Assembly: GCF_037392515.1 (NCBI RefSeq)
Contig: NC_090280.1
Location: forward strand, 29,579,118 to 29,643,117
Direction of reading: 5' to 3'
DNA: 64,000 nt
Source: Haliotis asinina
Lineage: Eukaryota; Mollusca; Gastropoda; Lepetellida; Haliotidae
Shown: piece by piece, positions 14,421 through 55,126 of the stretch
How positions within the stretch are numbered: position 1 is the stretch's first letter
How the letters are laid out: the number at the start of each line of letters is the position of its first letter
Program-made: the position numbers and the translations under genes
The notes under the pieces: model-generated
The model's input: only the letters and a program-made list of their open reading frames with translations
Database searches by the model: none
Told to the model about the DNA's origin: nothing

Positions 14421-14805
14421 ATTGTTTAACAGACTGTTAGCTTTATCGTTCAAATGTGCAATCCCACATGTAGCCTCAAGATATTCCAACACGATCAACG
14501 TAACGAAAATTTCCTCTTAAATATAAACCTTATCTGAATTCTGAATTATCTTCATAAAGTGAAAAGGCCCATCACAGGTGAACGTGCATAAGTATTGGTA
14601 GGTTTATTCCGGAATGTTGGACAAACTAAGAAATATAACTACATGAATGTTTTTTTCGGGTACAGCAAGTATAACTGCAAACTGCACTGTATCAAATACC
14701 TCTTTGCCTTTTCAAACACAGCCCATCTCAAGCGCAGTAATAAACTTCGTTCTGTTTTGCCAATTCTACACCTGGTTGATGTTGAAGGAATATTGTTTCA
14801 ATCAG

Positions 14806-23889: not shown

Positions 23890-26800
23890 AGCCACTAACA
23901 ATTCTAGTTACAAATCTAAACAACCAATAATTAAAATACATCTATTTACAGAACATGTTATTGAACATTCAACCAAAAAATCAATTTCTTTTAAAAAACC
24001 TATAATTAAATGAGAACTAATGTTTGTATAAAGATCCTGTACAGTTTTCACATTGAAATATTTATCCCTTGTGATGGAGAATTCGACACAGTCATGCAGA
24101 ATATGCTTGACCGTGACTCTCTCATCACAAGGGATACAAAATGGAGGATCCTCACCTTTTAAAAGATATGAATGAGCATATCTAGCATGGCCAATACGAC
24201 ATCGTCTTAAAATAACCTCTTCAAATCTGGACTGACAACCCAAGTAGGTGTAACCAATATACAGTTTTATTTCGTGTAATTTATTTATACCTACTTGGGT
24301 GTCCCACTTCTTCTGCATCAGATATCGGATGTAACTTCTAATGCTAACTTTGTAATCAGTGTATGGAATAAGAAGTGGTGTCACAGATTTGTTGAGTGCT
24401 GCCTTGGCAGCAAGATCGGCCATTGCGTTACCGGATATACCTACGTGGCTGGGTAACCAACAAGAGACGATGTCGTATTGGCCAGTGGCAAGATTATTAT
24501 ACAATTCAAAAATTTCTATTAAATGTGGATGTTTACAAGAAATATTTTTAATAGCCTGAAGGCAAGAAAGAGAGTCTGAATAGATTATATATTGTTTACG
24601 TTTAGGGTGTCTTTGAATATATTTGAGAGCTGTTAGTATGGCGTTAGCTTCTGCTGTAAAAATAGAACTGTTATCAGGTAATCTAGACGATGTTGTTCTG
24701 GATCCAACGACAGTGGAACAAGCCACAGCGCCACCGTCCTTGGACCCATCTGTAAATAAGGATTTATAATTGCTGTATTTATGTTTCAGTTGATTATATT
24801 CTTGTTTATACTGTAATTCATTCGTTTCTGATTTTTTAAAAGTCGTCAATGTTAGGTCAACTTGTGGCCTAACCAACTGCAAAGGAGGAGAAGAAAGAAG
24901 ATGGGAACGAGCTATGTTTTCCAGCTCAATGCTTGCAGCAGAAATAAGTGGTTTTATTCTTAAACCAAGAGGCGGAACAAGAGAAGATTTCTTATTGTAT
25001 AAATCCTCATACAGAGTTATATGCAGGGTTTGACTCATTTGAATGTAGTTTTGTTACATATTGTAAAGCTAATTTTATACGTCGTTGCTCAAGAGATGGT
25101 TCATCAGCCTCGACATACAGGTGAAGTTCTAAAGGAACCAAGACAAAGTCTTACACCTTGATGATGGACAGAATCTAATAGTTTTAAGTTGCTTTTGCAG
25201 GCTCCATCATAGACGATGGAGCCACAATCAAGTTTAGAACGAACGAGTGATCGATATAGGTGGAGAACGGTAGCTTGATCCCCTCCCCATTTTGAATTTG
25301 AAACCACTTTCAACAAGTCAAGAGCCTTCAGGCATTTAGTTTTAAGGGACTTAACATGGGGCAGAAATGTTAAGTGGGAGTCAACGATTAGGCCCAAGAA
25401 CTTGCCCTCCTTTACAACTTTGATCAGCGTGCCATTTAGAGATAGTTCAGGGTCCCTATGTGGCTTATATTTTCTGCAAAAATGTATACAATTAGTTTTG
25501 GATTCAGAAAATTTAAAGCCATTTTCAAAACACCATTTATTAATCTTGTTCAAACACAACTGCAATTGCCGTTCAATAGTATGCATATTTTTACCACGAC
25601 AAGAAATATTAAAATCATCCACAAATAACGATCCATCAATTGAATCGTTTAAAACTTTTGATAAACTGTTGATCTTGATGCTAAAAAGAGCCACAGATAA
25701 GATACTGCCTTGTGGAACACCCTGATCCTGATTGTAATGATCAGACAGGGTAGAACCCACACGGACCTGGAATTGTCTGTCATTTAAAAAGTTGGCAATA
25801 AATTCAGGCAAACGACCTCGCAAGCCGAAGTCATGTAAATCTCTCAGAATTCCATACTTCCAGGTTGTGTCATATGCTTTTTCAAGATCAAGAAAGATAC
25901 ACACAGCATGTTCTTTATTAATTAGTCAATTTTTCACAAACGATTCTAAACGAACTAAGTGATCGACAGTACTTCTGTTTTTACGGAAACCACATTGTAT
26001 ATCTGTCATAAGGTTATTTGTTTCCAAGTACCAAACAAGTCGATTATTTATCATGCGTTCCATGGTCTTACAAACACAGCTAGTTAATGAAATCGGACGA
26101 TAATTAGGGGGGATCCGTATGATCACGTCCAGGTTTAGGTATTGGTACTACTATGGCGTCACGCCATGACGGAGGAAAGTTACCTGATGTCCAAATATCA
26201 TCAAAAATATTGAGAAGAGTTTCTAGGCAGGATTCCGGTAAGTGCTTCAGGAGTTGATAATGTATGATATCAGCTCCAGTAGCAGTGTCATGAGCTTGAT
26301 CAAGAGCAGTATGGAGTTCATGAATAGAAAACGTTTCATTGTAATCTTCCCCATTATCAGAATTGAAATTAATAGTTTTCTTTTCTTCTTGTTTTTGATA
26401 TTGCTGGAATTTTGGTACATAATTTGAAGAGGAAGAGTGTTTAGCAAGGGTTTCACCTAGTTTATCAGCAATATCTGATTTATCAGTAAGCAATTGATCT
26501 CCATGTTTAAGATGATGGACAGTAGATTTAGTACCTTTACCTTTGATTTTCTGGACCATGTTCCATACCTTGGACATAGGTGTCCGAGAATTTATTTTAG
26601 ATACATAATTTTGCCAAGATTGGCGTTTGTTTTGTTTAAAAGTACGCCGTGCTTTAGCATTTAAAATTTTAAATTTACTTAAATTATGCACCATAGGATG
26701 CCGACGGAAATAATGTTCAGCTTTCTTCCTTGCCTTCCTAGCTTGTTTGCACTCATCGTTGAAGCATGGTTTTCTTATGTGTGGAACTACAGAGGAATTT

Positions 26801-27310
26801 GGTATACACTCATCAGCTATGGAATTCAATTCATCAGAAAAAGATTTAATAGCATCGGGAACGTCAATAAAACGTTCAGGTTTAAGTTTTTCAGCACACA
26901 GTGTTTCATATAAAGCCCAGTTAGCCTTTTTAAAATTTCGTCTTGATGATGGAGGAACATCGGATGGAGTTACAGCTTTTGGCAAACGCCAAAGACGGCG
27001 AAATATAAAGAGAGCACAGTGTAAACGCTACATGTAACGTAATTCTCACTGCAACAGCCTGCATATTAGTATTAAATGAAACAGAGCTTTGAATAACGTT
27101 TTGTTTGACTAGAATGGATGATCCGCCAGTGGCCCGATCACCCGGAGGTGCAAAACAATGATATGCATTAAAATGACGAAAATTAAATGTATCTGTTTGT
27201 TTTAAATATGTCTCTTGGAGACATATCGCTGAAGGTATAAAATCTTGGACTAATAGCTGTAATTCATGTAAATTAGTCCTCAATCCTCTGCAGTTCCACT
27301 GTACAATATT
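23890..27310 (-). pseudogene. LINE ORF2 of head 1, broken
   Basis: An endonuclease/reverse-transcriptase/RNase H polyprotein in pieces. The start of the endonuclease is at 27283-26995 (ICLQETYLKQTDTF to SLAFAK). The frame then jumps to AVTPSDVPPSS at 26985, which removes much of the endonuclease domain (a deletion of roughly 370 bases compared with 46355-50044). RT pieces follow at 26985-26104, 26126-25926 and 25904-25104 (FLDLEKAYDTTW, GVPQGSILS, SLFVDDF). RNase H and the C-terminal zinc-knuckle region are at 25038-23908 (TDGSKDGG, YSDSLSCLQA, WLPSHVGISG). Besides the deletion there is an in-frame stop near 25920 and frameshifts near 26110 and 25070. It cannot make a working protein. Confidence 0.9.
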
Positions 27311-27321
27311 ATTGGAATAAA

Positions 27322-28596
27322 CTATCTTTTGGGGGGATTTATTGAGGATCTACCCCGCACTCTTTTGGAGGGCGACAAGCTATGTGCCCTAGAATGGACG
27401 TTTTCAGAAACGTCCATATCTTCAAGAGACCCATATTTATTGTACAATTGAATTTTATTTTGTGACCCCTTAGGAGCTCTGCTACTGTGTTGTTTTAAAG
27501 CATCAGGCTTTGGCTTTGGTTTACTTTTCACCGTTTGCTGACTATCAGATGTTGATTGAGACCTTGAATGTGACTGAGATGATGATGATTTGTGATCAGA
27601 AGACGACTTTGAGCTACTAGGGAGTGGTTCCTCAGTCTGTGATGATATAGCTGGGTACAAAAGCTGTGGAGAATCGCAATTTACCCAAGTCAAGGTAGTT
27701 TGGCAGCCTGTGGATGATTTTGTTATTTTAGAGCGTGACTCCAATGTTGTTTTTGCTACTGCAGCATAGCTTTCTGGAAGATCAGATCTTTTTACTATAT
27801 TTTTGGCCTCAGAAAAAGAGATATTTTGAGTGAATTTGATTCTATTTATTTCCATTTGTTCTTTCCAAACAGGACATTGTTTAGAAAATGAGGAATGGTC
27901 GCCTGAGCAGTTGGTGCATTTTTTAAAATCACTGGTACAATCTTCTGTTAGGTGTGTCTTCTCACCACAGTGGGCACACACAACGGACAATGTACAAGTA
28001 TTTACACCATGGCCGTACTTCTGACATTTAAAACACCTGAGCGGGTTCGGAATGTACACGTCAACCTTGATGTTGCAGTAACCAGCCTTCAATGATTTTG
28101 GAGCTGTCGGAGATGAAAAGGAGAACAGATAAGTATTGGTTGGAACACTTTCATTGTTTTTGCGGACTGAAAAGCGTTTGACGTCGAGCACACCTTGATC
28201 TTTCATTTCAGTCATGATGTCAAGTTCTGTCATGTCAGAAAACAACCGATCACGATCTCTGATGATTCCTTTGCTCGTGTTTAACGTCTTATGGGCAGAT
28301 ACAGTAACCGGAATTCCAACAAACGATTCTATGCTCATCAAATTGACTGACTGCTCCCGTTTCCCACACTCAACCTGCAGTGCACCTGAACGTAGCCGTT
28401 TAATGTTCTTAACTTCCCCGGCAATACCTTGAATACCTTTGGCAACTGCGAACGGGTTCAATTTTAGAGGCGTTTTATCAGCAGATTCGATCACAAGAAA
28501 GCGTGACCAAAACTCAATTGATCTGGACGGTCGAAGGTCATTATCATCGACATCATTTTCAAGAGGACGTTTGGGGTTTTTTTGTGGGGATTTCAT
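27322..28596 (-). CDS. LINE ORF1 protein of head 1, 424 aa, open
   Basis: An open nucleic-acid-binding ORF1. An RRM-like front part (EFWSRFLVIES, LKLNPFAVAKGIQGI, LRSGALQVECGKREQ) is followed by three zinc knuckles: CFKCQKYGHGVNTC, CAHCGEKTHLTEDC and CTNCSGDHSSFSKQC. A Ser-rich low-complexity stretch (SSSKSSSDHKSSSSQSHS) and a basic end (KRVRGRSSINPPKR) complete it. It stops with TAG and lacks the ATGA overlap with ORF2 seen in the intact copy at 46355. Although open, it sits in a dead element. ORF1 proteins of this type coat the LINE RNA. Confidence 0.88.
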   Translation of the reverse strand: MKSPQKNPKRPLENDVDDNDLRPSRSIEFWSRFLVIESADKTPLKLNPFAVAKGIQGIAGEVKNIKRLRSGALQVECGKREQSVNLMSIESFVGIPVTVSAHKTLNTSKGIIRDRDRLFSDMTELDIMTEMKDQGVLDVKRFSVRKNNESVPTNTYLFSFSSPTAPKSLKAGYCNIKVDVYIPNPLRCFKCQKYGHGVNTCTLSVVCAHCGEKTHLTEDCTSDFKKCTNCSGDHSSFSKQCPVWKEQMEINRIKFTQNISFSEAKNIVKRSDLPESYAAVAKTTLESRSKITKSSTGCQTTLTWVNCDSPQLLYPAISSQTEEPLPSSSKSSSDHKSSSSQSHSRSQSTSDSQQTVKSKPKPKPDALKQHSSRAPKGSQNKIQLYNKYGSLEDMDVSENVHSRAHSLSPSKRVRGRSSINPPKR

Positions 28597-29081
28597 AAGC
28601 CATATTTAGGGTTGAGATTTCATCATCCGAGCTCCCCACCCACCACGGAGTATCACAAGGACAATGCTAAAAACAAGCGGATCTCCAGCTTGCAGCAGAA
28701 AAATTAAAAGATTAATAATTCCACCAGATTGGCCCATGAGCCACCGCCTTCTGGCATACGACTCTAGGCAAAAACAAACAACATTAAGATCAAAACATTC
28801 GCCAAGTCTTTAGACACGTTATAATTTCGTAATTTTCTCACAACAGTAAACAAATGTAGCACAGGGCTTGGCGTGACCAGCCGATTGGTCGAACCGGGCC
28901 TATTCGACCACCCGTCAAGGCGAAGTCAGGGCCAAAGTGGTGTATTGAGCAACAGGAACACGATTGCAGGCCCCTATTGCCCTCAACCACCAGGATCCCC
29001 TCCTCCGCCGACACAGGCCGCAACCCACGGCAAACGGGTTGGTGGACCAAATATCGCCCCGGGTCCACTACGGGGGGTGTC

Positions 29082-29139
29082 GGCGAGCTCTTAGCGTGAC
29101 CCAGCACCCACCACGAGGAGGTGGCTCGCCACGGGTGCC
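29082..29139 (-). ncRNA. HDV-like ribozyme, head 1
   Basis: First 58 nt of head 1, read from 29139 downwards. P1 is GGCACCC (nt 1-7) with GGGTGCT (31-37), G1 facing U37. P2 is GGCGAGC (10-16) with GCTCGCC (52-58), all seven pairs kept. P3 is ACC (18-20) with GGT (28-30). L3 has CTCCTCG, and the catalytic strand is GCTAAG (45-50). Compared with the copy at 44499, nt 42 is C and nt 51 is A, both unpaired. Confidence 0.8.
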
Positions 29140-31463
29140 TCGGAACAAAAGTCATCCAACGATTTACCTTTAGTATTTACACTACCCCAGAGTGGGTTGT
29201 GCCCATTTAAATCTCCCATTGTAATACAGGGCTTCGGGAGCTGATCATATAAAGCTTGAAGATCGGTTTTGGCAAACGCCAAAGACGGCGAAATATAAAG
29301 AGAGCACAGTGTAAACGCTACATGTAAAGTAATTCTTACTGCAACAGCCTGCATATTAGTAACAAGCGAAACAGGACTTTGAATAACATTTTGTCTGACA
29401 AGAATGGATGATCCGCCAGTGGCTCTATCACCCGGAGACGAAAAACAATGATATGCATTAAAATGACGAAGGTCAAATATATCTGTTTGTTTCAAATTAT
29501 GTCTCTTTGAGACATATAACTGAAGGTGTAAAGTCTTGGACCAATAGCTGTAATTCATGTAAATTAGTCCTCAGTCCTCTGCAGTTCCACTGTACATTAT
29601 TATTGGAATAAACTATCTTTTGGGGGATTTATTGGGGATCTACCCCGCAATCTTTTGGAGGGCGACAAGCTATGTGCCCTAGAATGGACGTTTTCAGAAA
29701 CGTCCATGTCTTCAAGAGACCCGTGTTTATTAAACAATTGAACTTTATTTTGTGACCCCTTGGGAGCTCTGCTACTTTGTTGTTTTGAAGCATCAGGCTT
29801 TGGCTTACCTTTCACCGTTTGTCGATTATCAGCTGTTGATTGAGGCTTTGAATCTGACTGAGATGATGATGATTTGTGATCAGAAGACGACTTTTAGGTA
29901 CTAGGAAGTGATTCCTCAGTCTGTGATGATATAGCAGGGTACAAAAGCTGTGGAGAATCACAATTTTACCCAAGTCAAGGTAGTTTGGCAGCCTGTGGTT
30001 GATGTTGTTTTAGAGCTACACCCTGATGATGTTTTTGCTACTGTAGCATAACTTTCTGGAAGATCAGATCTTTTTACCCGTTTTTTTTGCCTCAGAGAAA
30101 GAAATATTTTGTGTAAATTTGATTTTGTTTATCTCCATTTGTTTTTTCCAAATTGGACACTGCTTAGAAAATGAAGAATGGTCGCCTGAGCAGTTGGTGC
30201 ATTTTTTAAAATCACTGTCACAATCTTCTGTTGTGTGTGTCTTCTCACCACAGTGAGCACACACAACAGACAATGTGCAAGTACTAACACCATGACCAAA
30301 CTTCTGGCATTTAAAACACCTTAATGGATTGGGTATATAGGTGTCTACATTGATGTAACAATGGCCTGCCTTTACTGATCTGGGAGCTGTTGGAGAGGAA
30401 AATGAAAAGAGGTAGGTGTTAGTCTGAATGGTCTCCTGGTTTTTACGTGTTGTAAAACGCTTAACATATGTGACCCCTTGATCTTTCATTTCTGAAACAA
30501 TATCAAATTCAGACATGTCGGCGAATAATCCATCTCTATCCCTGATGATTCCTTTGCTTGTGTTAAGTGTCCTATGCGGAGATACTGATACTGGAATGCC
30601 GACGAATGTGGTGGTAGACATCAGGTTAGTAGTCTGTTGTCTTCTGTTGCACTCAACGAGCAACGCACCTGAACGCAAACGTCTGATATTTTTGACGTCA
30701 CCAGCAATTCCTTGTATGCCTTTCTGTATTGCAAAAGGGTTCAACTTTAGTCTACTGTTATCTTGAGTCTCAATCACGACAAGACGTGGCCAGTAATCAA
30801 TGGAAGTGGACAGTCTTTGGTCGTTATCATCTGGATCATTGTCAAGTGGACGTTTTTTCTTTGTAATGGGGATTTGAGAAGCCATGGTTATGGTTGAATA
30901 GTTCATCATCCGAGCTCCCCACCCACCACGGAGTATCACAAGGACAATGCTAAAAGCATGCGGGTCTCCGGCTTGCTGCACCAAGGATACTCGGATGATA
31001 TACTCCTGCAGAAAAATTAAAGGATTAGTGATTCCACCAGATTGTCCCATGAGCCACCGCCTTCTGGCATACGACTCTAGGCAATAATAAACAGTAACGT
31101 TTTCAAATTCTGTTTCGAAATTCGCCAAGGCTAGAAAATATAAACATACAATTCTCAATTTTTTGTGCAACACTACAGAGTTGTAGCACAGGGCTTGGCG
31201 TGACCAGCCGATTGATAGAATCGGGCCGATTCTACCACCCGTCTAGGTGAAGTCAGGGCCAAAGTGGTGTGTTGGGCAATGGAACGCTGTTAAAAGCCCC
31301 AGTGCCCTCAACCACCAGGATCCCGTCCTCCACCGACACGGGACGCAACCCACGGCAAACGGGTTGGTGGACCAAATATCCCCCCGGGTCCACTACGGGG
31401 GTGTCGGCGAGCTCTTGGCGTTACCCAGCACCCACCACGAGGAGGTGGCTCGCCAAGGGTGCC
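29140..31463 (-). mobile_element. LINE head 2: 5' UTR, ORF1 and start of ORF2
   Basis: Begins with the ribozyme at 31463 and has a 5' UTR to about 30886. ORF1 starts at 30885 (MASQIPITKKKRPLDND) and is open to 30064, with its last part in another frame at 29815-29600. Zinc knuckles CFKCQKFGHGVSTC, CAHCGEKTHTTEDC and CTNCSGDHSSFSKQC are intact. ORF2 follows at about 29590 and ends abruptly at 29140 after GDLNGHNPLWGS and SLDDFCS, inside the endonuclease domain, where head 1 begins. ORF1 has at least one frameshift near 30050 and a stop near 29895. Confidence 0.87.
31406..31463 (-). ncRNA. HDV-like ribozyme, head 2
   Basis: Same 58-nt layout as the other heads, read from 31463 downwards. P1, P2 and P3 pairs are all kept. 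Differences from 44499 are U at nt 8 (linker), C at nt 47 inside the catalytic strand (GCCAAG in place of GCUAAG) and A at nt 51. The base taken as catalytic, C46, is present. Confidence 0.75.
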
Positions 31464-33610
31464 TGAAGACGGAGAAACATACAGAGAACACAATGTAAAC
31501 GCAACGTCCAAAGTTAGTCGCACTGCAACAGCCTGAAGATTAGTAGTAAGTGTAACTGGGCTATGGATAACGTTCTGTTTAACTAGAATGGAAGACCCTC
31601 CAGTGGCCCTGTCACCCTTAGGCGAAAAACAATGCTATGCACTGAACGAACGTACGTTAAGAACATCTGTCTCTTTCAAATATGTTTCCTGCAGGCAAAA
31701 CGCTGAGGGTGATACATCTTGGATTAAAACTTGTAATTCATGGAAATTATTCCTTAGTCCCCTACAATTCCATTGCATAATAGGATTATGATAATCTATC
31801 GTTTGGGAGGATTTATTGGGGATCTTCCCCGTACCTTTCTGGCGGGCGACAAGCTGTGTGCCCTGGAGCAGACGTTTTCAGTCACGTCCATGTCCTCAAG
31901 GGATCCATATTTGTTGTATAAATTGATTTTATTGTCTGACCCTTTTGGGGCTCTACCACTAAGTTTTTTCAAAGAATCTGGCTTTGTACCTTTGCCTTTA
32001 GAGAGTTGTTTAGACTTTGTAGGCTGAGGTGATGCGTTAATATCAGAGGATGTTTCACATTGGCTTTGAGATGTACTAGGAACTGATTTTGTTGTTTGGG
32101 TAGATATTGCAGGTGAGAATATCAGAGGAGATTCCGTTTTAACCCAGGTCAGGTTTGTCTGACAGCATACAGATTACCTTGTTGTTTTAGCGGTTACTGC
32201 TTCTGACGATGTTCTGGTGATAGAAGCATAGCTCTTCTTATGTTCTGAGCTTTGCACTAGCTTTTGAGCTTCCGCAAAACTAACGTTTTGAGTGAATTGT
32301 ATCCTATTTATCTCCATTTGATGTTTCCAAACAGGACAACTTTTAGAGTAGGAGGAGTGGTCACCCGCACAGTTAGTACATTTTTTAACATTACTGTCAC
32401 AATCTTCTGTTGTATGTGTCTTTTCGCCACAGTGAGCACATACAACAGACAATGTGCAAGTATTGACGCCATGACCGAACTTTTGACATTTAAAACACCG
32501 CAAAGGGTTTGGAATGTACATGTCCACATTGATGTTACAAGAACCTGCTTTAAGAGATTTTGGAGCAGTTGGTGAGGAAAAGGAGAACAGGTAAGTATTG
32601 GTGTTTGTAACAACATCATTCTTCCGGATTGTGAAACGTTTTACATTGAGTACTCCCTAATCTTTCATCTCAGAGATGATGTCAAGCTCTGTCATATCCG
32701 CAAACAATCGGTCACGATCTCTGATGATTCCCTTGCTCATATTGAGTGTTTTATGAGCCGTAACCGTGACTGGAACGCCGACAAACAATTCTGTGCTCAT
32801 AAGGTTTGTGGCATGTTGCCTTTTCCCACATTCAACCAACAAAGCACCAGAACGCAAACGTCTAATATTCCTGACATCACCTGCAACGCCCTGTATAGCC
32901 TTGGATATGGCAAAAGGGTTTAACTTTAATGGAGTCTTGTCAACAGTTTCAATTACAAGAAATCGTGGCCAGTATTCAATTGACGTGGGCAGTCTTTGAT
33001 CAGTATCAATTGGATCAGTTTGGTTTTTTTAGGAGGGTTTTCACAAGCCATGGTTAATTTTCAAAAGTTCGTCATCCGAGCTCCCCACCCACCACGGAGT
33101 ATCACAAGGACAATGCTAAAGTGGGTCTCCAACTTGCTGCACCAAGGATACTCGGATGATATACTCCAGCAGAAGAGTTATTAGTAACACATCTACCAGA
33201 TTGGCCCATGAGCCACCGCCTCCTGGCATAAGACTCTAGGCAAAGTGCCAAACAGCATACATCAAAATCATAAACATGTTTAGAGAACAATTCTGCCAAG
33301 ACCACAAGTAACATATTTTCCAAACAGATTAGTGTAATGACAAAAATTTAAGTCTATGCACACGGCTTGGCGTGACCAGCCGATTGATAGAATCGGGCCG
33401 ATTCTACCATCCGTCTAGGTGAAGTAAGGACCAAAGTGGTGTGTTGGGCAAATGGAACGCCGTTAAAAGCCCATCTGCCCTCAACCACCAGGATCCCGTC
33501 CTCCACCGACACGGGACGCAACCCACGGCAAACAGGTTGCCCAATTTAGTCGCCTCTTACGACAAGCAATGGGGTGCTGTGGACACATTCTGTCCCGGGT
33601 CCACATGGGA
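31464..33610 (-). mobile_element. LINE head 3: 5' UTR (no ribozyme), ORF1 and start of ORF2
   Basis: The 5' end at 33610 lies just after where the ribozyme would end, compared with 39220. The 5' UTR runs to 33052. ORF1 starts at 33051 and continues with breaks to about 31800. Pieces are 32857-32657 (LRSGALLVECGKRQHATNLM type) and 32527-32174 with knuckles CFKCQKFGHGVNTC, CAHCGEKTHTTEDC and CTNCAGDHSSYSKSC. ORF2 begins near 31790 and stops at 31464 after CSLYVSPSS, inside the endonuclease, where head 2 begins. ORF1 has several stops or frameshifts. Confidence 0.85.
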
Positions 33611-34392: not shown

Positions 34393-34571
34393 TACATTAT
34401 CTCTTCTCATACATGTTTCTGTCACGTAGTGGTAAAGTCTCACTTGTCATGATGAAGACCGCTGTTCACTTCCATATATGGGAATAATGCATGAAGGCCA
34501 ATTTTTGCAATGATATTGATGGAAACGTCCTAAAAGTAGAATAAAAGTGAACTAACTCGCTCATGTTTCAG

Positions 34572-36028
34572 GTAGACATTGGCCCGCCTGGATAGATAAG
34601 TCTCATCATCATGGCGGATTCCCAAACAATGTTGACGCTGCATCAGAGTTTGTGTCGCTGATGGTTCAGAGTGCCAAGGACTACACAGGAGGTCGCCTTC
34701 CCCACATATTTGAGGTCATCAATGAACCTGACTGGTACGAAGATATTATTGACCCACAAACGAATATAGACTTTCACAGGGCCGTGGCCGACAAGCTGAA
34801 ATCAAGATTTGGAATGAAAGTTGCCGGACCGTCGTACACCAGTATGGCATTACGACATGCAGATGAAAATAACTTCAGCTCCTGGAAAAGAACTGCGAAG
34901 TTTCTGGACATGTCTCTTGATCACTTGGACTTTTTCTCTTTCCATTCCTACAACTATCTGCATATCTCAGGTGGAAACCATACCAACTCTGGCATGAACG
35001 AAGCTCGTCTGGTTGCTTCTCTTGACATGGTGGAGAATTATTCCCATATCAAGAAAGGAAAGAACGTTCAGCTAATTAACACTGAATTTGGATTAGGCGT
35101 GTCAGGAGTTCCAGCCGGTTTTGAAAATGGACTAATAGACTTTCAGACCATTTATCAATCAAACGGTTTCATGTTTACTTTCCTTAACCTGAGAGAGTTT
35201 ATCGACAGAGTTACCGTATTTCTCTTTTCGAATGAGCAATATCCAGGTCATCCTTCCCTTCGGAATTCCTTATTTACAATGCAAGGACAACCCCGTGAAA
35301 TAACAAAATTCTTCACGTTTTGGAACAATCTTATTTATGACCACAGATTCCTCCGTATCTCCAGTCAATACAATGGACAGGAGAGAACAGTTGCATCACT
35401 CGCCCTTGAAACTCCACACACAAAAGAGATGATGGTTCTACTTCACAACTATGGAAGTAAATTCGAGAATGTTACACTGGACTTTCCCAACAACTGGCTT
35501 AACCCTTCCACTGGTGAAGAAACATGCGTTCTGCTCGACAATGGTAATCCATCTATTCATGCCAATTAACATTTCGACAGGTCTAAGCTTCATGGCACCG
35601 TCGGTCTTCCTGGATCGTCAACATGCTTCTACAAGTTTAAAACTAACTACAACTTTAATGGAATAAGCACGAACTACGAGAACACATACTATGGCCAGAA
35701 AATGATTATCCCTATCAGCAACGGACGTGCACAGACAACCGTCGATCTACCCAGCTCCGGATACCATTCAACTTACCTTAGACTAGGAATTAGCCGCGAC
35801 AAGAATGCCAATGCAAAACCCAAGACCGTTGTCTTCAATGGCCACACGTTATCTTCGAGTTACATGTTGTTTGATGCCACAAAGGTTAACAGAAAAACAA
35901 AGTGGAACGTGTGGGTCTTCATGGTTCCGGCATCACAGGTCCACACGTCAAATACAGTGACCATGACATTTGATGGAAACGGTGGTCACGTGACATCCGT
36001 CGCTCTCGTTGCTGGCAAGCTTCATTAG
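34572..36028 (+). pseudogene. GH86-like gene C: orphan catalytic exon with in-frame stop
   Basis: Near twin of exon 3 of gene A. The acceptor TTTCAG/GT at 34571/34572 gives the same phase: WPAWIDKSHHHGGFPNN, then HIFEVINEPDWYEDI (acid/base) and LINTEFGLG (nucleophile). At 35567-35569 the codon is TAA where gene A has TAC (HANYHFDR), cutting off the C-terminal domains. The frame is otherwise open to a stop at 36026-36028. No exon 1 or exon 2 was found in 33623-34571 or, on either side of the compound LINE, back to gene B. It may have been copied without its 5' half or lost it. A truncated barrel-only product is possible if an upstream exon exists outside what I recognise. Confidence 0.85.
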
Positions 36029-37072: not shown

Positions 37073-38190
37073 TTAGAAGTTGGTGAGGTAATACAAGACA
37101 CTATTATGGATGACAACTTCTTTAATTCTTTTAACACGACGTTTCAAGGCTAATTCTTGCCCCTTCATCAGGTGGATAATGAGCATAGGTAACATTGCAG
37201 AATATATATAGGTGAAGCCAAAAACAACTGAAAACATTGAAAACAAAAGCAAGCCATAGTCTCCACCCTAACCAGACGTGCCAAAGCCATCTGTGAACCA
37301 GCCCACCTCCAAGATGAAATTGACCACCTCAAGAGAACTTTCATCACCCTCAATGGATACCCAAAACAACTCGTTGACCAGACTATAGCCACAACTCTCC
37401 AGCATCAGAACGACCGCCTCCCTAAACCTGAGCCTGCACCCATCCGAGTCAACATTCCATACCAAGGCAAGATAAGTCATCAAATCAGTCGACTCCTCAG
37501 AAAAACTGCCAGCGTTGATGTGACCTTTTATTCTGATAAGACATTGAAAAACATCCTTAGAGCAAATGGTGGCATTGATCAAACCAACCCCAACCCCAGA
37601 GGCTGCATCTACAAGATAAACTGTGATTGCGGCAGCAGCTACATAGGTGAAACCTGCAGACCATTCAACATCAGACTCAAAGAGCACAAAACTTCAGTAA
37701 GAAAATTAGATCTGAAATCGACCCTCTCTGAACACATCGTCAACTATCCAAACCACTCCATCAACTGGAAAAACACCGAGATCCTGGCTTCCAACATCAG
37801 TGATTGGCGGAGAAGGAAGCTTTGGGAAGCAACCACCATCAGAAGATTAGAACCTCAGATCAATAGAGATCAAGGCGTGTACCTACCCTCTGCCTGTTGT
37901 GTCAACAAGGACTCATAGACTCTCAATCTATCAGCTGTGTAAACAACCATGTACTGTTAAAACATTCCTCCTTTTCATCTCTCCTCTGTGATTGTACACA
38001 CCTAATTACATTTATGTGCTTGTATATACATCTTACCTCTCTGGCTTCATGTATACCTATATATATTCTACAATGTTACCTATGCTCATTATCCACCTGA
38101 CGAAGGGGCAAGAATTAACCTTTGAAACGTTGTGTTAAAAACAATTAAAGAAGTTGTCATCCATAATAATGTCTTGTATTAGCAATAATA
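37073..38190 (+). mobile_element. Penelope-like element remnant with inverted arms
   Basis: The core reads as the end of a reverse transcriptase (TLTRRAKAICEPAHLQDEID, then HLKRTFITLNGYP) followed by a GIY-YIG endonuclease (CIYKINCDCGSSYIGETC, then RPFNIRLKEHK). This pairing is diagnostic of Penelope-like elements. Flanking arms of about 125 bases, 37089-37213 and 38055-38181, are inverted copies of each other with high similarity. Inverted terminal repeats are known in this group. Most of the RT is absent, so the copy is a truncated fossil. A similar but different arm-like stretch follows at about 38195-38300. Confidence 0.85.
37241..37918 (+). pseudogene. Penelope-like RT end plus GIY-YIG endonuclease, partial
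   Basis: Open reading sequence of about 225 codons covering the end of the RT and the GIY-YIG nuclease. The nuclease's two motif strands are seen as CIYKIN and SSYIGET, with the following Arg in RPFNIRLKEHK. The family uses this nuclease to nick the target for integration. No start codon or RT palm domain is present, so it is a fragment. Confidence 0.85.
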
Positions 38191-39161: not shown

Positions 39162-39219
39162 GGCACCCGTGAAGAGCCACCTCCTCGTGGTGGGTGCTGG
39201 GTCATGCTAAGCTCTCCTC
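39162..39219 (+). ncRNA. HDV-like ribozyme, LINE at 39162
   Basis: P1 GGCACCC (1-7)/GGGTGCT (31-37), P3 and the CTCCTCG loop are unchanged. P2 has changed on both sides: nt 11 is A and nt 57 is T (a kept pair in place of G-C), but 12/56 is A-C and 16/52 is C-T, so the stem is weakened. nt 42-44 read CAT. The GCTAAG strand is kept. It may be inactive or slow. Confidence 0.65.
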
Positions 39220-44127: not shown

Positions 44128-44498
44128 TAAATCAATCAATTCATAGATAAAACACGCCTGATCTTGCGAAGTGCAAGATATGTGTCCCGGCAATAATCAC
44201 GTTGTCCTCTCAATCCAGACATTGTGAGGTCCAGATATTTTCTGGGCTTTTACATTTGAACAAATGCATGTCGAATTGATTACAACAACTTTCCAGACAT
44301 CGCAAAAGGCTGAAGGTTAGGATTTCAAAACGGTCGTCATAAGACATAAGCTTAGTGCCCCAATTTTCCTATCTTTGAGGGATAATAGTTTTGATACGTC
44401 GAGACGTGTAAGTCAGATATGAGATACAGAAACTGTCTACAGAGCACACAACATATGTTGATGCGAAGGCATGGTGATCGAACTGTCAATTGGTACCT
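44128..44498. other. Spacer between two LINEs
   Basis: About 350 bases of unassigned DNA between the right target-site duplication of one LINE and the left duplication (TCAATTGGTACCT, 44486-44498) of the next. No gene seen. Confidence 0.6.
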
Positions 44499-44556
44499 GG
44501 CACCCGTGGCGAGCCACCTCCTCGTGGTGGGTGCTGGGTAACGCTAAGTGCTCGCC
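44499..44556 (+). ncRNA. HDV-like self-cleaving ribozyme at LINE 5' end
   Basis: The double-pseudoknot layout of HDV ribozymes can be drawn by hand. P1: nt 1-7 GGCACCC with 31-37 GGGTGCT, G1-U37 wobble as in HDV. P2: 10-16 GGCGAGC with 52-58 GCTCGCC. P3: 18-20 ACC with 28-30 GGT. P1.1: C22-C23 with G38-G39. J1.1/4 is GGGTAAC, and the catalytic strand GCTAAG has C46 in the role of HDV C75. P4 is essentially absent. Cleavage would fall just before nt 1, the exact element start next to the target-site duplication. Ribozymes of this class are known at 5' ends of R2, L1Tc and some other LINEs. Activity here is inferred. Confidence 0.83.
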
Positions 44557-44866
44557 AACCCCCCGTTGTGGACCCGGGGGCATATTTGGTCCACCAACCT
44601 GTTGGCCGTGGGTTGCGGCCCTGTGTCGGTGGAGGAGGGGATCCTGGTGGTTGAGGGCAATAGGGGCCTGCAACCATGTTCCTGTTGCTCAACACACCAC
44701 TTTGGCCCTGACTTCACCTAGACGGGTGGTTGAATGGGCCCGGTTCAATCAATCGGCTGGTCACGCCAGGCCCTGTGCATAGTTAGTATTATTGCACACA
44801 TCTATTTTTCTGGTCTTGGCTATTCTAAATTCAAATTATTCATGATATTGTTTTGCCTAGAGCACT

Positions 44867-44923: not shown

Positions 44924-45122
44924 TTGTCTTTAGAAATTGTCATGGATGGAACCAACCTGACATTTATTCTTTTTGACAGTATTGGCTACCTGTGTCTGTA
45001 TTGCTTGAGTATAACATCCCTGTAACCCTGGTGTTTCATCGTTGGTTTCCACTTTAACGCCGTCCTTGTTGACACTCCATGGTGGGTGGGGAGCAGGGAT
45101 GTCGAATCTACGTCCATTCATT

Positions 45123-46358
45123 ATGGCTTCCCAACAACTCTCTGGTTCTCGATCTAAATCCAAGAGAAAACATGTAGACCTAGAAACTGTCTCGTCTTCT
45201 GATGATGAATCAGAAACAACAAATTTAGATTCTTGGCCCCGTTTCCTGGTTGTCGAGGGAATTGAAGGACAACCATTAAAACTGAACCCTTTTGCAATAT
45301 CAAAAGCAATTGCAGGAATATGCGGCGAAGTGAAAAACGTTACTCGGCTTAGAACAGGTTCCTTGCTGGTGGAATGTGCCAGAAAACAACAGGCTGTTAA
45401 TTTGCTTAAAGCTCGTCAGTTTGCAAATACAAGGATTGCTGTGTCACCACACAGAACGTTGAATTCGTGTAGAGGCATTGTTCGTGATCGGGCAAAATGT
45501 CTCTCTGACATGTCGGAAGTTGATATCGCAGCAGAACTTAAGTCTCAAGGTGTCACCTCTGTGAAAAGATTTACAAGAAAAGATGGCGATAACACTGTCA
45601 AAACAAACACGTATCTGTTGACGTTTTGTCTTGCTACAGTACCAAAATCAATTAAAGCTGGGTACTTTAATATTGAGGTAGAAGTCTACATCCCTAATCC
45701 ACTCCGGTGCTTTAAATGTCAGTTGTTCGGACACGGTGCTAACACGTGCAAAAACTCCCCAAAATGTTCTCGTTGTGGTGAGAAACATGAGAATGCCGAC
45801 TGCACAAATGCCATCAAATGTGCAAACTGTCATGGAGATCACATGTCCTCATCACGATCCTGTCCAGTCTTTGAACAACAAGCTCAAATTCTCAAACTTA
45901 AACATACCAATAATATATCTTTTGCTGAGGCAAAGAAACTGTTACCAGTCACTGATAGAATCTCCACACAAAAAACTTACTCTGCTGTTGTATCTACCTC
46001 CCGTCCAAAAGTTGATCACGAGTGCCAGACCTCCATTTCCTGGGTCTCAGAAAAACAGAACATTCTGTATGCAATTTCTGATGAGGATACAGGAACATCC
46101 ACCCAGACAGACATGATGCCTGAACCAAAAAATCACCATGAACCTGAAAGGAAAACAACAATGTCCAGAAAAGAACAGAAACAACTAAGACGAAAGGAAG
46201 CCAGGGCCCTTAAACATATTGAGGTGCCTTTACCATTACAAGTGCCTGTAGAGGTTCATAACACCTATGAACCACTAGATATGGAGACAAGCCCTTCAGA
46301 GTCATCCCAGCATAAAGGGACTTCGTCTCGTTCACGCTCTCCTATTGAGCCCCCATGA
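45123..46358 (+). CDS. LINE ORF1 protein, 411 aa
   Basis: RNA-binding protein of the element. The start MASQQLSGSRSKSKRKH is chosen because heads 1-3 and the copy at 55691 begin at the matching place, after the conserved GTGGGTGGGGAGC leader; an in-frame ATG at 45042 lies inside that leader. An RRM-like part (SWPRFLVVEG, LKLNPFAISKAIAGI, LRTGSLLVECARKQQ, TLNSCRGIVRDRAKC) is followed by three zinc knuckles, CFKCQLFGHGANTC, CSRCGEKHENADC and CANCHGDHMSSSRSC, then a Ser/Thr- and Lys-rich tail. It should coat the LINE RNA as a ribonucleoprotein. Its stop TGA overlaps the ORF2 start as ATGA, which suggests coupled re-initiation. Confidence 0.92.
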   Translation: MASQQLSGSRSKSKRKHVDLETVSSSDDESETTNLDSWPRFLVVEGIEGQPLKLNPFAISKAIAGICGEVKNVTRLRTGSLLVECARKQQAVNLLKARQFANTRIAVSPHRTLNSCRGIVRDRAKCLSDMSEVDIAAELKSQGVTSVKRFTRKDGDNTVKTNTYLLTFCLATVPKSIKAGYFNIEVEVYIPNPLRCFKCQLFGHGANTCKNSPKCSRCGEKHENADCTNAIKCANCHGDHMSSSRSCPVFEQQAQILKLKHTNNISFAEAKKLLPVTDRISTQKTYSAVVSTSRPKVDHECQTSISWVSEKQNILYAISDEDTGTSTQTDMMPEPKNHHEPERKTTMSRKEQKQLRRKEARALKHIEVPLPLQVPVEVHNTYEPLDMETSPSESSQHKGTSSRSRSPIEPP

Positions 46359-49300
46359 GTTGCTCTCATAATGTTATCCAGTGGAATTGCAGAGGCCTTA
46401 GAAACAATTTTAATGATCTTCAACTATTATCACAAGATTTGAAACCATCAGCTTTTAGTTTACAAGAGACGTACCTGAGAAGTACAGATAGATTTGACTT
46501 GCGCCAGTATAACTCATTTCATTCATTTTCACCTCCAGGTGATAAAGCCACTGGTGGTGCTTCTATTTTGGTGAGGCAAGATGTTCTTCATAGCCCTGTT
46601 CCACTTAAAAGCAATCTTCAGGCTGTTGCTATACGGCTTTCTTTACAAATAACGTTCACGCTTTGTTCCCTGTACATTTCACCATCTTCAACTGTTCAGC
46701 CGTCTGATCTTCAGGAGCTATACGACCAACTTCCCAAACCCTGTATTATCATGGGTGATGTTAATGGACATAACCCTTTATGGGGAAGTACTAATACTAA
46801 CAATAAAGGGAAAATACTTGAAGACTTCATATCTAATAACAACGTATGCATATTTAATGATGGATCAGCTACTTATTTACATCCTGGTACAGGAACGTAT
46901 TCTGCACTTGATTTGTCACTCTCAGATCCCGATATATACAATGAGTTTGAATGGTCAGTCAATGATGACCTTTGTGGAAGTGACCATTTTCCAACAATTC
47001 TCACAGCTATAAATCCTACTGATAACCCACCTGCAACTAGGTGGAATTTTAGTAAGGCCAACTGGCCATTATTTCGGACACGCTGCACTGAAAACTTGAA
47101 TAATGATGTTTTTGTCAATAGTCTTGATCCGATTCAGGTATTCTCTGATAAACTGAAGAATATAGCTAATGAAACTATACCTAAGTCCTCTGCAACCCCA
47201 CACGTTCGTAAACCATGGTTTAATGATGAATGTAAACAGGCCAGAAAGAACAGGAAGAAGGCCGAGAAGTATTTTCGGCGACATCCTACAGTCCATAATT
47301 TAGACAAAGTTAAAATTCTAAATGCTAAGGCTCGACGCGCTTTCAAGCAGAATAAGCGTCAATCTTGGCGAAATTATGTTTCCAAGATAAATTCCCGCAC
47401 ACCAATTTCAAAAGTGTGGAATATGATTCAACGAATAAAGGGTAAAGGTTGCAAATCAACTGTCCACCATCTGAAGGATGGTGACGATGTATTGACAGAC
47501 AGGGGTGATATTGCCAATAAGATTGGTGTAACTCTCGCCAAACATTCGTCTTCATCAAATTACGTCCCTGAGTTTCAGAAATACCAGAAACAGCAGGAGA
47601 AGAAAAAGATCAATTTTAACTCAGACAATGGTGAAGACTATAATGAACTATTTTCATTACATGAACTATATACAGCCCTTGAGCAAGCTCATGATACAGC
47701 AACAGGTTCTGATGGTATTCATTATCAACTTCTGAAACATTTACCTGAATCATGCCTGGAAACACTGCTAAATATATTTGACACGATATGGACAACAGGG
47801 ACCTTCCCAGATTCATGGCGTAATGCCATTGTAGTTCCCATACCAAAACCTGGCAGGGATCATACTGATCCTTCGAATTACAGGCCAATCTCTTTAACGA
47901 GTTGTGTCTGTAAAACCATGGAACGAATGGTAAACAATAGATTGACTTGGTATCTTGAAACCAATAATTTTATAACAAATATTCAATGTGGTTTCAGGAA
48001 AAATCGTAGTACCATTGACCATTTGGTACGTCTTGAATCCTTTGTCAAAAACGCTTTAGTCAATAAACAACATGCAGTATCGATATTCTTTGATTTGGAG
48101 AAAGCATACGATACCACTTGGAAGCATGGCATTTTAAAGGATTTACATGACTTCGGTTTAAGGGGTCGTTTGCCTCTTTTTATCTCACAATTTTTAAAAG
48201 ACAGGCAGTTTCAAGTCCGAGTGGGATCAACCCTGTCTGACCATTATAATCAGGATCAGGGTGTTCCACAAGGCAGCATTTTGTCTGTAACACTTTTTAG
48301 CATCAAGATAAACAGTTTATCCAAGGTTTTAAATGATTCAATTGATGGATCATTATTTGTGGATGATTTTAATATTTCTTGTCGTGGTAAAAATATGCAT
48401 ACTATCGAACGGCAATTGCAATTGTGTTTAAACAAAATAAATAAATGGTGTCTAGAAAATGGCTTTAAATTTTCTAAATCAAAAACTAATTGTATACACT
48501 TTTGTAGAGAATATAAGCCTCATAAGGACCCAGAACTATTTTTAAATGGTTCTCCCATCAAAGTTGTAAAGGAGGCCAAGTTCTTGGGTCTAATTTTCGA
48601 TTCCCACTTAACCTTTTTGCCGCATATCAAATCACTAAAAACAAAATGCTTGAAGGCACTCGATGTATTAAAAGTGGTATCCAACTCAAAGTGGGGAGGG
48701 GATCAAGCAACTCTCCTACATTTATACAGATCACTTGTCCGTTCAAAACTCGATTATGGCTCCATCGTATATGGTGGAGCTTGCAAAAGCAACCTTAAAC
48801 TTCTTAATTCTGTCCATCACCAGGGTCTAAGACTTTGTCTTGGGTCTTTTAGAACATCGCCTATCGACAGTCTCTACGCTGAGGCTGATGAACCATCTCT
48901 TGAGCAGCGCCGTATAAAATTAACTTTACAGTACATTACCAAATTATACTCTAATGAATCTAACCCTGCATTTAATTCTGTCTTCAATCCCCTTTATGAA
49001 GATTTATACAACAAGAAATCTTCTCTGGTTCCACCTCTAGGGCATAGAGTGAAACCCTTTCTTTCTTCAGCTGGCATTCAGCTGGAAAACATAGCCCCCT
49101 CCCGTCTTCTTTCTTCTCCTCCTTGGCAGTTGGTTAGGCCACAAGTTGACCTAACATTAACTACATTTAAAAAATCAGAAACTAATGACTTACAATATAA
49201 ACAGGAATATAATCAAATGAAGCATAAATATAGCAATTATACATCCTTATTTACAGATGGGTCCAAGGACGGTGGCGCAGTAGCTTGTGCCACTGTCATT

Positions 49301-50044
49301 GGATCCAGAACAATATCTTCTAGATTACCAGATAATAGTTCTATTTTTACAGCTGAAGCTAACGCCATATTAACAGCTCTTAAATATATTCGAAGACACG
49401 CTAAACATAAACAATATATAATCTACTCAGACTCCCTTTCTTGTCTTCAGGCGATTAAAACTATTTCTTGTAAACATCCACTTTTAATTGAAATTATTGA
49501 ATTGTATAATGATCTTGCTACTGGCCAATACGACATCGTCTTTTGTTGGTTACCCAGCCACGTGGGCATTTCTGGCAACACAATGGCCGATCTTGCTGCC
49601 AAGGCAGCACTCAACAAATCTGTGATACCACTCCATATTCCATACTCTGATTATAAAGCTGCAATTAGAGCGTATATCCGTGATCTGATGCAGAGGAAGT
49701 GGGACACCCAAGTGGGTATCAATAAATTACATGCAATAAAACCCTATATTGGTTATACCTACTTGGGTTGTCAGTCCAGGTTTGAAGAGGTCATCTTGCG
49801 ACGATGTCGTATTGGCCATACGAGATATACTCATGAATACTTATTGAAAGGTGAGGATCCTCCGTTCTGCATCCCTTGTGATGAAATAATCACGGTCAAG
49901 CATGTTTTGCTTGACTGTGTTGAATATTCCATCACAAGGGATAACTATTTTAAATCCCGAACTATGAAGGATCTTTTTAACAATAACAGTGGTCATTTAA
50001 TTATTGCATTTTTAAAAGAATTAGATTTGTTAAAAGAATTGTAA
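46355..50044 (+). CDS. LINE ORF2: endonuclease, reverse transcriptase, RNase H, 1229 aa
   Basis: Enzyme of target-primed reverse transcription. An apurinic-type endonuclease lies at about 5-225: N11 in QWNCRGL, E38 in LQETYL, GDVNGHNPLWG and GSDHFPTIL. The reverse transcriptase lies at about 480-760: YRPISLTSCVCKTMERM, FFDLEKAYDTTW, DQGVPQGSILS, and F668-V-D670-D671, with Val where many LINEs have Ala. RNase H has acids D968 (TDGSKDGG), E1001, D1026 (YSDSLS) and D1079 (MADLAAK). A C-terminal knuckle follows (CRIGHTRYTHEYLL, then FCIPCDE and HVLLDC). It is fully open and of normal length for the I group. The start is fixed by the ATGA overlap with ORF1. It is the best-kept enzyme in the window. 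Confidence 0.95.
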   Translation: MSCSHNVIQWNCRGLRNNFNDLQLLSQDLKPSAFSLQETYLRSTDRFDLRQYNSFHSFSPPGDKATGGASILVRQDVLHSPVPLKSNLQAVAIRLSLQITFTLCSLYISPSSTVQPSDLQELYDQLPKPCIIMGDVNGHNPLWGSTNTNNKGKILEDFISNNNVCIFNDGSATYLHPGTGTYSALDLSLSDPDIYNEFEWSVNDDLCGSDHFPTILTAINPTDNPPATRWNFSKANWPLFRTRCTENLNNDVFVNSLDPIQVFSDKLKNIANETIPKSSATPHVRKPWFNDECKQARKNRKKAEKYFRRHPTVHNLDKVKILNAKARRAFKQNKRQSWRNYVSKINSRTPISKVWNMIQRIKGKGCKSTVHHLKDGDDVLTDRGDIANKIGVTLAKHSSSSNYVPEFQKYQKQQEKKKINFNSDNGEDYNELFSLHELYTALEQAHDTATGSDGIHYQLLKHLPESCLETLLNIFDTIWTTGTFPDSWRNAIVVPIPKPGRDHTDPSNYRPISLTSCVCKTMERMVNNRLTWYLETNNFITNIQCGFRKNRSTIDHLVRLESFVKNALVNKQHAVSIFFDLEKAYDTTWKHGILKDLHDFGLRGRLPLFISQFLKDRQFQVRVGSTLSDHYNQDQGVPQGSILSVTLFSIKINSLSKVLNDSIDGSLFVDDFNISCRGKNMHTIERQLQLCLNKINKWCLENGFKFSKSKTNCIHFCREYKPHKDPELFLNGSPIKVVKEAKFLGLIFDSHLTFLPHIKSLKTKCLKALDVLKVVSNSKWGGDQATLLHLYRSLVRSKLDYGSIVYGGACKSNLKLLNSVHHQGLRLCLGSFRTSPIDSLYAEADEPSLEQRRIKLTLQYITKLYSNESNPAFNSVFNPLYEDLYNKKSSLVPPLGHRVKPFLSSAGIQLENIAPSRLLSSPPWQLVRPQVDLTLTTFKKSETNDLQYKQEYNQMKHKYSNYTSLFTDGSKDGGAVACATVIGSRTISSRLPDNSSIFTAEANAILTALKYIRRHAKHKQYIIYSDSLSCLQAIKTISCKHPLLIEIIELYNDLATGQYDIVFCWLPSHVGISGNTMADLAAKAALNKSVIPLHIPYSDYKAAIRAYIRDLMQRKWDTQVGINKLHAIKPYIGYTYLGCQSRFEEVILRRCRIGHTRYTHEYLLKGEDPPFCIPCDEIITVKHVLLDCVEYSITRDNYFKSRTMKDLFNNNSGHLIIAFLKELDLLKEL

Positions 50045-50610
50045 ATATATAAATATTTTATGATTGGAATTTTGAATTAGTAACTAAGATTGTTCGTGGC
50101 TGTATCCTCGAGGGGGGTTAAAGTACTGTAAAATTATTGTCCTCCTGAGAGGGTACGTAAGTCCACAAACGTTCAAAGTAAATTCAAACACTCCGCTCTT
50201 TTAATCGTAGTATATGTGTTCTTTTAAATCTATGGCTATATGTGCCTAAATTGCTAGCGACTGAGGGGATGGTGTAAATCCAGCTGGTGTCCATGCAGGT
50301 AGCAAAAGTAATGTAAGTCCCCATGGTCCCTTGTATGGTGATCTACCTTCAGTTGTTAGCAATCCATAGCCCATTTTTATATTGTCTTGTTCACTATAGT
50401 TAAACTGTTTTAGATCTAGTCACTAGTCTTAAATGTATATCTGTGATATATACTAGTGTTTTTACTGTTCGTTGTCAACAGGGTTTTATTTTCTTATATT
50501 CATTCATTCTACAATGTCAGTATTACTTGTTCTCGTCACGATATGGCTGCAAGATTGCCGATGTGACGATAAATATTAACTCACTCACTTAACTCACTCA
50601 ATTGGTACCT

Positions 50611-55068: not shown

Positions 55069-55126
55069 GGCACCCGTGGCAAGCCACCTCCTTGTGGTGG
55101 GTGCTGGATAACGCTAAGAGATTGCC
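55069..55126 (+). ncRNA. HDV-like ribozyme, LINE at 55069
   Basis: P1 is unchanged. P2 reads GGCAAGC (10-16) against GATTGCC (52-58): pair 13/55 is A-T where other copies have G-C, a compensatory change, while 15/53 is G-A. The loop base at 25 is T (CTCCTTG). nt 38-44 are GGATAAC, keeping the two Gs of P1.1. The GCTAAG strand is kept. Confidence 0.78.

Follow-up and report, generated by a model that had tools for sequence, protein, structure and literature searches.

A predicted P4-less HDV-like ribozyme at the 5' end of a LINE family in Haliotis asinina

A LINE and its sister copies

We analyzed a 64,000-nt stretch of Haliotis asinina DNA, referred to here as the window, to characterize an element, E1, that extends from 44499 to about 50597 (Table 1). 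E1 encodes an endonuclease and a reverse transcriptase, has target-site duplications (TSDs) and ends in a simple-repeat tail, placing it among the LINEs, or non-LTR retrotransposons. The order of endonuclease, reverse transcriptase, and RNase H fits the I superfamily, and an I-type LINE is plausible. The tail motif resembles abalone repeats. Further copies of the same LINE, E2 to E5 and the 5'-shortened copy A, lie in the window on both strands.

Other features are scattered around these elements. Three related frames on the forward strand (8710-10221, 14592-16255, and 34556-35569) look by eye like heparanase-type glycosidases, and the third had only a sub-threshold Cellulase hit in Pfam. A Tc1/mariner-type transposase occupies 5766-6854 on the reverse strand, in an open frame of 362 amino acids. 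At 37241-37918 on the forward strand there is a frame with a stretch that appears GIY-YIG-like by eye; the frame had no Pfam hit and is possibly part of a Penelope-like element.

Table 1. Features of E1 and its sister copies, in window coordinates
Feature	Position	Strand	Remarks
Predicted P4-less HDV-like ribozyme of element E1	44499..44556	+	predicted cleavage between 44498 and 44499
P1 5' strand GGCACCC	44499..44505	+	partner strand 44529-44535; pairing in 97.9% of cells, compensatory change absent
P2 5' strand GGCGAGC	44508..44514	+	partner strand 44550-44556; four pairs with compensatory changes
P3-L3-P3' hairpin ACC-TCCTCGT-GGT	44516..44528	+	5' side of P1.1 formed by CC at 44520-44521
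P1 3' strand GGGTGCT	44529..44535	+	
GGGTAAC	44536..44542	+	first GG is the 3' side of P1.1; continues into J4/2, no P4
J4/2 GCTAAGT	44543..44549	+	putative catalytic C46 at 44544
P2 3' strand GCTCGCC	44550..44556	+	pairs with 44508-44514
ORF1 frame of E1 (stop to stop)	45015..46358	+	zinc-knuckle-like cysteines by eye; no Pfam hit
ORF2 frame of E1 (stop to stop)	46349..50044	+	endonuclease, reverse transcriptase, RNase H
3' end of E1	50537..50597	+	CACGATATGGCTG...GTGACG block, ACTC repeats
5' TSD of E1, TCAATTGGTACCT (13 nt)	44486..44498	+	abuts G1
3' TSD of E1	50598..50610	+	recurrence of TCAATTGGTACCT
Predicted ribozyme of element E2	55069..55126	+	one P2 mismatch; TSD TACAAAAAAGTAG (13/13) abuts G1, recurs at 61153
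Predicted ribozyme of element E5	39162..39217	+	2-nt deletion, one P2 mismatch; TSD of 14 nt with 1 mismatch, recurs at 44128
Predicted ribozyme of element E3	29082..29139	-	
Predicted ribozyme of element E4	31406..31463	-	
Copy A, ribozyme absent	31464..33610	-	starts just 3' of the would-be ribozyme end (nt-59 class, against E5-type copies); extends to E4 start

The first 58 nt match an HDV-like fold without P4

A sequence-only reading of this DNA had proposed that E1 begins with an HDV-like ribozyme, and the sequence and pairing it described are present. Positions 44499-44556 (forward strand) consist of the strands listed in Table 1, with GT between P1 and P2 and a single C between P2 and P3. 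They form an HDV-like double pseudoknot in which P1, P2, P3, P1.1 (CC/GG), and the GCTAAG strand with C46 follow each other in HDV order. In ribozyme numbering, P1 joins 1-7 to 31-37 (7 bp, with G1-U37), P2 joins 10-16 to 52-58 (7 bp), P3 joins 18-20 to 28-30 (3 bp), and P1.1 joins 22-23 to 38-39. The 3-bp P3 hairpin is there as described, but the register of its loop had to be revised: L3 had been read as CTCCTCG, whereas the Rfam models give P3 as ACC/GGT and L3 as TCCTCGT.

The absence of P4, also suggested earlier, is evident from the sequence, as GGGTAAC joins GCTAAG directly. With 0 nt between these two strands there is no P4 helix of the classic form, while P1, P2, P3, and J4/2 are kept, placing the fold in the minimal (P4-less) HDV-like class. 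No inserted P4 was seen by eye in 60 genome copies with mutations in P1' or in 20 copies of a fourth P2 type described below.

An Rfam scan of the whole window returned no match at gathering score. On the ribozyme region, RF02682 scored 26.3 bits against a gathering score of 44 (E value of 0.0061 in 401 nt) and RF00094 scored 24.6 bits against 50. Across four loci of three subfamilies, RF02682 gave 23.4-30.7 bits, with the best score, 30.7, still below gathering. The HDV models of Rfam, put forward earlier as a check on the ribozyme, thus find the region, but all matches are sub-threshold.

We also searched with a descriptor of our own that leaves out P4, a second check suggested by the earlier reading. 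It specified a P1 of 7 bp (G-U allowed, no mismatch), a P2 of 5-7 bp (one mismatch allowed in 7), a P3 of 3 bp, P1.1, and C.A in J4/2. The descriptor found 44499 and matched only five places in the window (39162, 44499, and 55069 on the forward strand; 31463 and 29139 on the reverse strand), all of them starts of copies of the same LINE. Dinucleotide shuffling of the window produced 12 matches in 400 shuffles, or 0.03 per window, and when the local 600 nt were shuffled 20,000 times, 12 of the shuffles contained a match. When C46 was replaced in the descriptor (gap 12) and the same five elements were searched, A matched 3, T matched 4, and G matched 0; loose spacing in J4/2 blurs this control, and the descriptor alone cannot pin C46. 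P2 in the five window copies has two broken cells (E2 15-53 and E5 11-57) and two compensatory ones.

Copies in the home genome

We searched the home genome (1.143 Gb in 159 contigs) with the first 202 nt of E1, E2, and E5, and listed about 40 matches for each, the best of 2068-3202 first-look candidates. Among the matches listed, nt 1 was reached by 39 of 40 for E1, 38 of 40 for E2, and 39 of 40 for E5 (plus two fragment rows). A 79-nt query of the fourth type reached nt 1 in 40 of 40 matches listed, the best 40 of 1168 candidates. Because the queries themselves begin at nt 1, it is the flanks and duplications that define the boundary there. The flanks that were read look unrelated, save for three sets of duplicated loci (L023-L025, L166/L167, and L018/L019). 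Four other loci among the matches listed are about 100% identical to E1 over 202 nt, a figure that reflects rounding, since their bit scores are 361 against 365. The LINE family looks young.

For the ribozyme itself, we extracted 93 genome copies through nt 18-36 (up to 5 substitutions); no locus that was tried was lost, and the set includes E1, E2, and E5 of the window, fetched again. These copies comprise 39 unique sequences and three main P2 types. All 93 keep CC22-23, 92 keep GG38-39, 91 keep G1, and 88 keep C46, the position in J4/2 with the putative catalytic role. Comparison of subfamily representatives gives identities of 93.1, 91.2, and 84.2% for the ribozyme and, in the same pairs, 79.1, 81.1, and 85.7% for nt 59-260, so the ribozyme is the best conserved part in some pairs, not in all. 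Past nt 260, identity between subfamilies is about 50%.

Compensatory changes are concentrated in P2

The copies fall into four P2 types (GGCGAGC/GCTCGCC, GGCAAGC/GCTTGCC, GAAGAGC/GCTCTTC, and GAACGGC/GCCGTTC), and by eye the fixed differences between them are in P2 or joining positions. For covariation analysis we used 41 unique rows. These leave out five unique sequences whose 3' half contains indels, as well as the 60 copies picked for a mutated P1', and they include seven unique sequences from the 20 copies read of the fourth type. In these rows, 98.2% of 779 cells pair, compared to 91.9% in shuffled rows and 34-49% in slid structures. Double changes occupy 52 cells, against 15.8 +/- 2.7 in shuffles, none of 500 being as high, and 0-3 in slid structures; these cells count sequences rather than events, and four subfamilies imply few independent events. 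Every double change is in P2, at pairs 11-57 (GC/AU), 12-56 (CG/AU), 13-55 (GC/AU/CG), and 14-54 (AU/GC). Two other tallies are not in excess over shuffles: pairs showing any double change (4 versus 3.8) and further pair types (13 versus 14.5).

P1 and P3 had no double change in the 41 rows. The copies selected for mutations in P1', a selection that favors dead copies, were compensated in 2 of 40 (from 79 places) and 0 of 20 (from 94 places), and among the copies read, both mutant patterns returned only members of E1's LINE family. P1 is held by near-invariance and complementarity. The helices differ in kind of support, with covariation for P2 and complementarity for P1, P3, and P1.1.

Target-site duplications abut G1

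We read the 5' junctions of 40 genome copies (20 E1-type, 13 E2-type, and 7 E5-type), and a 3' tail was readable in 29 of them (15, 10, and 4, respectively). The TSD ends exactly before G1 in 25 of these 29 copies (13 E1-type, 8 E2-type, and 4 E5-type) and one nucleotide earlier in 3 of the 29, namely L010 and the pair L018/L019, which is one duplicated locus. The TSD at L073 is weak and that at L041 is only 9 nt. At L039, L018, and L019 the script took another repeat further on, and the match adjacent to the tail was read by eye. In a control with non-matching pairs, a score of 10 was reached in 1 of 210 and 3 of 182 cases, with maximum scores of 11 and 14.

In the window, the TSDs at G1 are perfect for E1 and E2 and have one mismatch for E5. 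Together with the genome copies, these duplications bear out the earlier claim that the ribozyme starts at the first base of the element. By our own reading, none of the 29 copies has an extra G at the junction, which is what an uncapped template should produce.

A second 5' end at nt 59

Copy A begins at the position where the ribozyme would end. We searched the genome with a pattern for the E5-type 5' UTR from nt 59, preceded by any base but C. The pattern gave 171 matches, which we treat as candidates, and the reversed control gave 0. Reading 20 of these candidates showed that 19 lack a ribozyme and begin at nt 59, with 18 distinct flanks, and that one is a ribozyme-bearing copy with a changed nt 58. 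Copy A, at 33610 on the reverse strand, has a changed base and so falls outside the 171. The corresponding patterns for starts at nt 60 and nt 58 gave 15 and 59 matches, both unread; by our own estimate, the 59 are about what nt-59 starts with a chance preceding C, plus point mutants, would give. Copies in which nt 53-58 are kept amount to 542, counted irrespective of whether they reach nt 1. The count of starts covers nt 58, 59, and 60 in one subfamily, the E5-type. Both borders of the ribozyme, nt 1 and nt 59, occur among the 5' ends of this subfamily.

The nt-59 ends are best read as arrest of the reverse transcriptase at the folded ribozyme. A second transcription start at nt 59 would account for them as well, and would produce a boundary as sharp as the one observed, with 171 candidates at nt 59 versus 15 at nt 60. 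That start, however, would have to coincide by chance with the first base 3' of P2, where an enzyme entering the fold would stop, and we consider it rather unlikely. It is also conceivable that the nt-59 copies descend from a master lineage without a ribozyme. At the R position of the pattern, A is present in 94 of 100 listed nt-59 rows, compared to 76 of 100 among the listed rows with P2' retained (both lists follow chromosome order and are not random samples), and thus the two classes are not equal samples. Against descent from one lineage, the nt-59 class includes R=A as well as R=G types, and the 19 copies read have 18 distinct flanks, although a master lineage also gives distinct flanks; on balance such a lineage seems quite unlikely.

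Relatives in other sequence collections

Relatives of ORF2 in protein collections are at most 64% identical (best 120 of 649), and a few are named from clam-symbiont assemblies. In bacterial genome records, eight contigs (L001-L008) contain LINE copies related to E1 at 26-51% identity. These records are from Solemya and lucinid symbionts, Sulfurovum, and Flavobacteriales, and the LINE copies in them are probably animal contamination. None of the eight contigs has a credible ribozyme by descriptor or Rfam, with no HDV family among four Rfam matches, and our evidence for the ribozyme therefore comes from one genome. Two loose descriptor matches in these contigs were judged by eye to be chance, one being far from the LINE and the other in apparent coding sequence.

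The contig L002, a Solemya velum gill symbiont scaffold, contains ORF1, ORF2, and, by eye, the conserved 5' UTR block of E1, with no recognizable ribozyme on the contig. The 5' UTR 3' of the ribozyme (44557-44758), 79-86% conserved between subfamilies, is by eye partly common to L002:6010-6210. A short block, GGTGGGTGGGGAGCAGGGATG, lies at 45062-45101 (forward strand), ahead of ORF1; the stretch is 87.5% conserved in E3 and E4, and L002 and L006 have something similar by eye. One core pattern each, both narrow, gave 0 matches in genome-contig and viral-contig collections, and none of 8 stretches found as ORF2 relatives in viral contigs was confirmed.

Comparison with known HDV-like ribozymes

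HDV-like ribozymes at LINE 5' ends form an established class, known from R2, R4/Dong, Baggins, L1Tc, and RTE. In the available text of PMC3774820, R4, Dong, baggins, L1Tc, and RTE are given as elements with ribozyme cleavage at the 5' end, and that of PMC4035085 assigns L1Tc, with its HDV-like ribozyme at the 5' end, to the ingi clade of LINEs. The sequence-only reading also named R2, L1Tc, and some other LINEs, and because the class is established, the novelty is smaller than that reading implied. E1 shares with these systems the 5'-end position, the predicted cleavage site at nt 1, and the HDV fold. The trypanosomatid L1Tc/ingi Pr77 is likened to it, by description, as a 5' HDV-like ribozyme on a LINE. 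In the available part of PMC10294476, the I-superfamily clades with a name that are reported across molluscs are Nimb and ingi, besides one Unknown clade.

The likeness to R2 extends to the sequence: the E1 hairpin CCTCCTCGTGG is the same as in the R2 core, and the core CCUCCUCGUGG is identical (PMC5035012, available portion). Unlike the known LINE systems, E1 has no P4, its ORF2 combines endonuclease, reverse transcriptase, and RNase H, and its tail consists of ACTC repeats. R2s that cleave at their own 5' end are described in the available text of PMC3774820 as having variable junctions, whereas most E1-family junctions are exact (25 of 29), with TSDs.

P4-less HDV-like forms were found first in metagenomes and then in gut phages, according to the accessible text of PMC10879173. 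Like these minimal P4-less and theta ribozymes, the E1 ribozyme has no P4 and otherwise the same fold, with the (here putative) catalytic C in J4/2. That text places about 99% of P4-less/theta ribozymes in Caudoviricetes phages, with theta often beside tRNAs; screening of sequences that took in bacterial, human, mouse, and protist genomes added just 12 matches, in bacteria. The E1 ribozyme, in contrast to the phage forms, has a LINE context, and ARAGORN found no tRNA genes in the window, which sets it apart from theta ribozymes, with their cleavage at a tRNA 3' end. The best Rfam match, the Faecalibacterium prausnitzii HDV ribozyme (RF02682), has a P3/L3 of equal size; unlike E1, with 1 position between GGCAA and GCUAAG, the model has 15 positions there that are not displayed, and the score is below gathering. 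In the literature searched, to the extent that its text was available and with a search partly too broad to weigh, we found no report of a P4-less HDV-like ribozyme on an animal LINE, and the word ribozyme is absent from the main texts of two mollusc LINE surveys.

A ribozyme that would set the 5' end of the template

We consider it highly probable that this LINE family opens with a minimal, P4-less HDV-like self-cleaving ribozyme of 58 nt that sets the 5' end of the template, with reverse-transcriptase arrest yielding the nt-59 copies. The computed basis for this is the complementarity of the fold, the compensatory change in P2, the TSDs at G1, and the nt-59 class; from these we infer catalysis, a 5'-hydroxyl, read-through transcription, and arrest. 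P2 compensation across four subfamilies, with the G1 duplications and the nt-59 class, likewise upholds the proposal that an HDV-like ribozyme of minimal form defines the 5' end of this LINE.

Under this scheme, the LINE would be transcribed by read-through from upstream host sequence or from a flanking promoter. The ribozyme would cut just 5' of G1, leaving an RNA with a 5'-hydroxyl G1 and a compact pseudoknot, and this cleaved RNA would be the template for target-primed reverse transcription. A reverse transcriptase that unwinds the ribozyme would reach G1, and the new copy would join the target at G1. If the folded ribozyme instead stops the enzyme, nt 59, which lies directly 3' of P2, would be the last base copied into cDNA, and the inserted copy would lack the ribozyme.

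Alternatively, the 58 nt could be a 5' motif that works at the DNA or RNA level, such as an internal promoter or a protein-binding hairpin, with transcription from G1 and an HDV-like fold that is incidental or inactive. A 5' ribozyme segment can double as a promoter, as stated for L1Tc in the available text of PMC8256844; the downstream 5' UTR is conserved too (79-86% at nt 59-260), and a fixed start site would equally fit the nt-1 junctions. Such a motif would leave unexplained the compensatory change in P2, the near-invariant P1.1 bases, the R2-identical core CCTCCTCGTGG, and the lack of a cap-like extra G at the junctions, and we regard it as improbable. A chance fold in a GC-rich repeat is barely credible, for while the element start is GC-rich and the Rfam scores are sub-threshold, both sets of shuffles (12 of 20,000 local shuffles; 12 matches in 400 window shuffles) and the covariation disfavor it.

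Returning to the self-cleaving ribozyme, we lean, with less assurance, toward a wider role in which it sets both of the sharpest ends left by reverse transcription, one by self-cleavage at G1 and the other through a folded P4-less pseudoknot that often stops the reverse transcriptase at nt 59. The genome would then hold well over 100 natural records of a folded ribozyme on the template during target-primed reverse transcription. If the ribozyme is active, genome sequence alone would suffice to test how often the reverse transcriptase passes a folded 5' ribozyme during integration.

The smallest HDV fold, described from metagenomes and phages, here heads an abundant LINE in an apparent animal. 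If it is active, P4 would be dispensable in a successful retrotransposon. An active ribozyme would also supply RNA-templated insertion systems with a compact 5' module of 58 nt; in such systems, 5' HDV-like folds bring gains according to the available text of PMC11331408.

The reverse strand of the window also holds three copies in tandem at 23428-33610. Copy A meets E4 at G1, E4 meets E3 at G1, and the tail is on E3. No separate duplication for E3 or E4 was found at the tail of E3; instead, the whole A-E4-E3 array is flanked by one 12-nt duplication, CTTTTTATACTC. The array may have arisen in a single integration during which the enzyme jumped template twice, each time from a 5' end defined by the ribozyme, or else by nested insertion followed by recombination.
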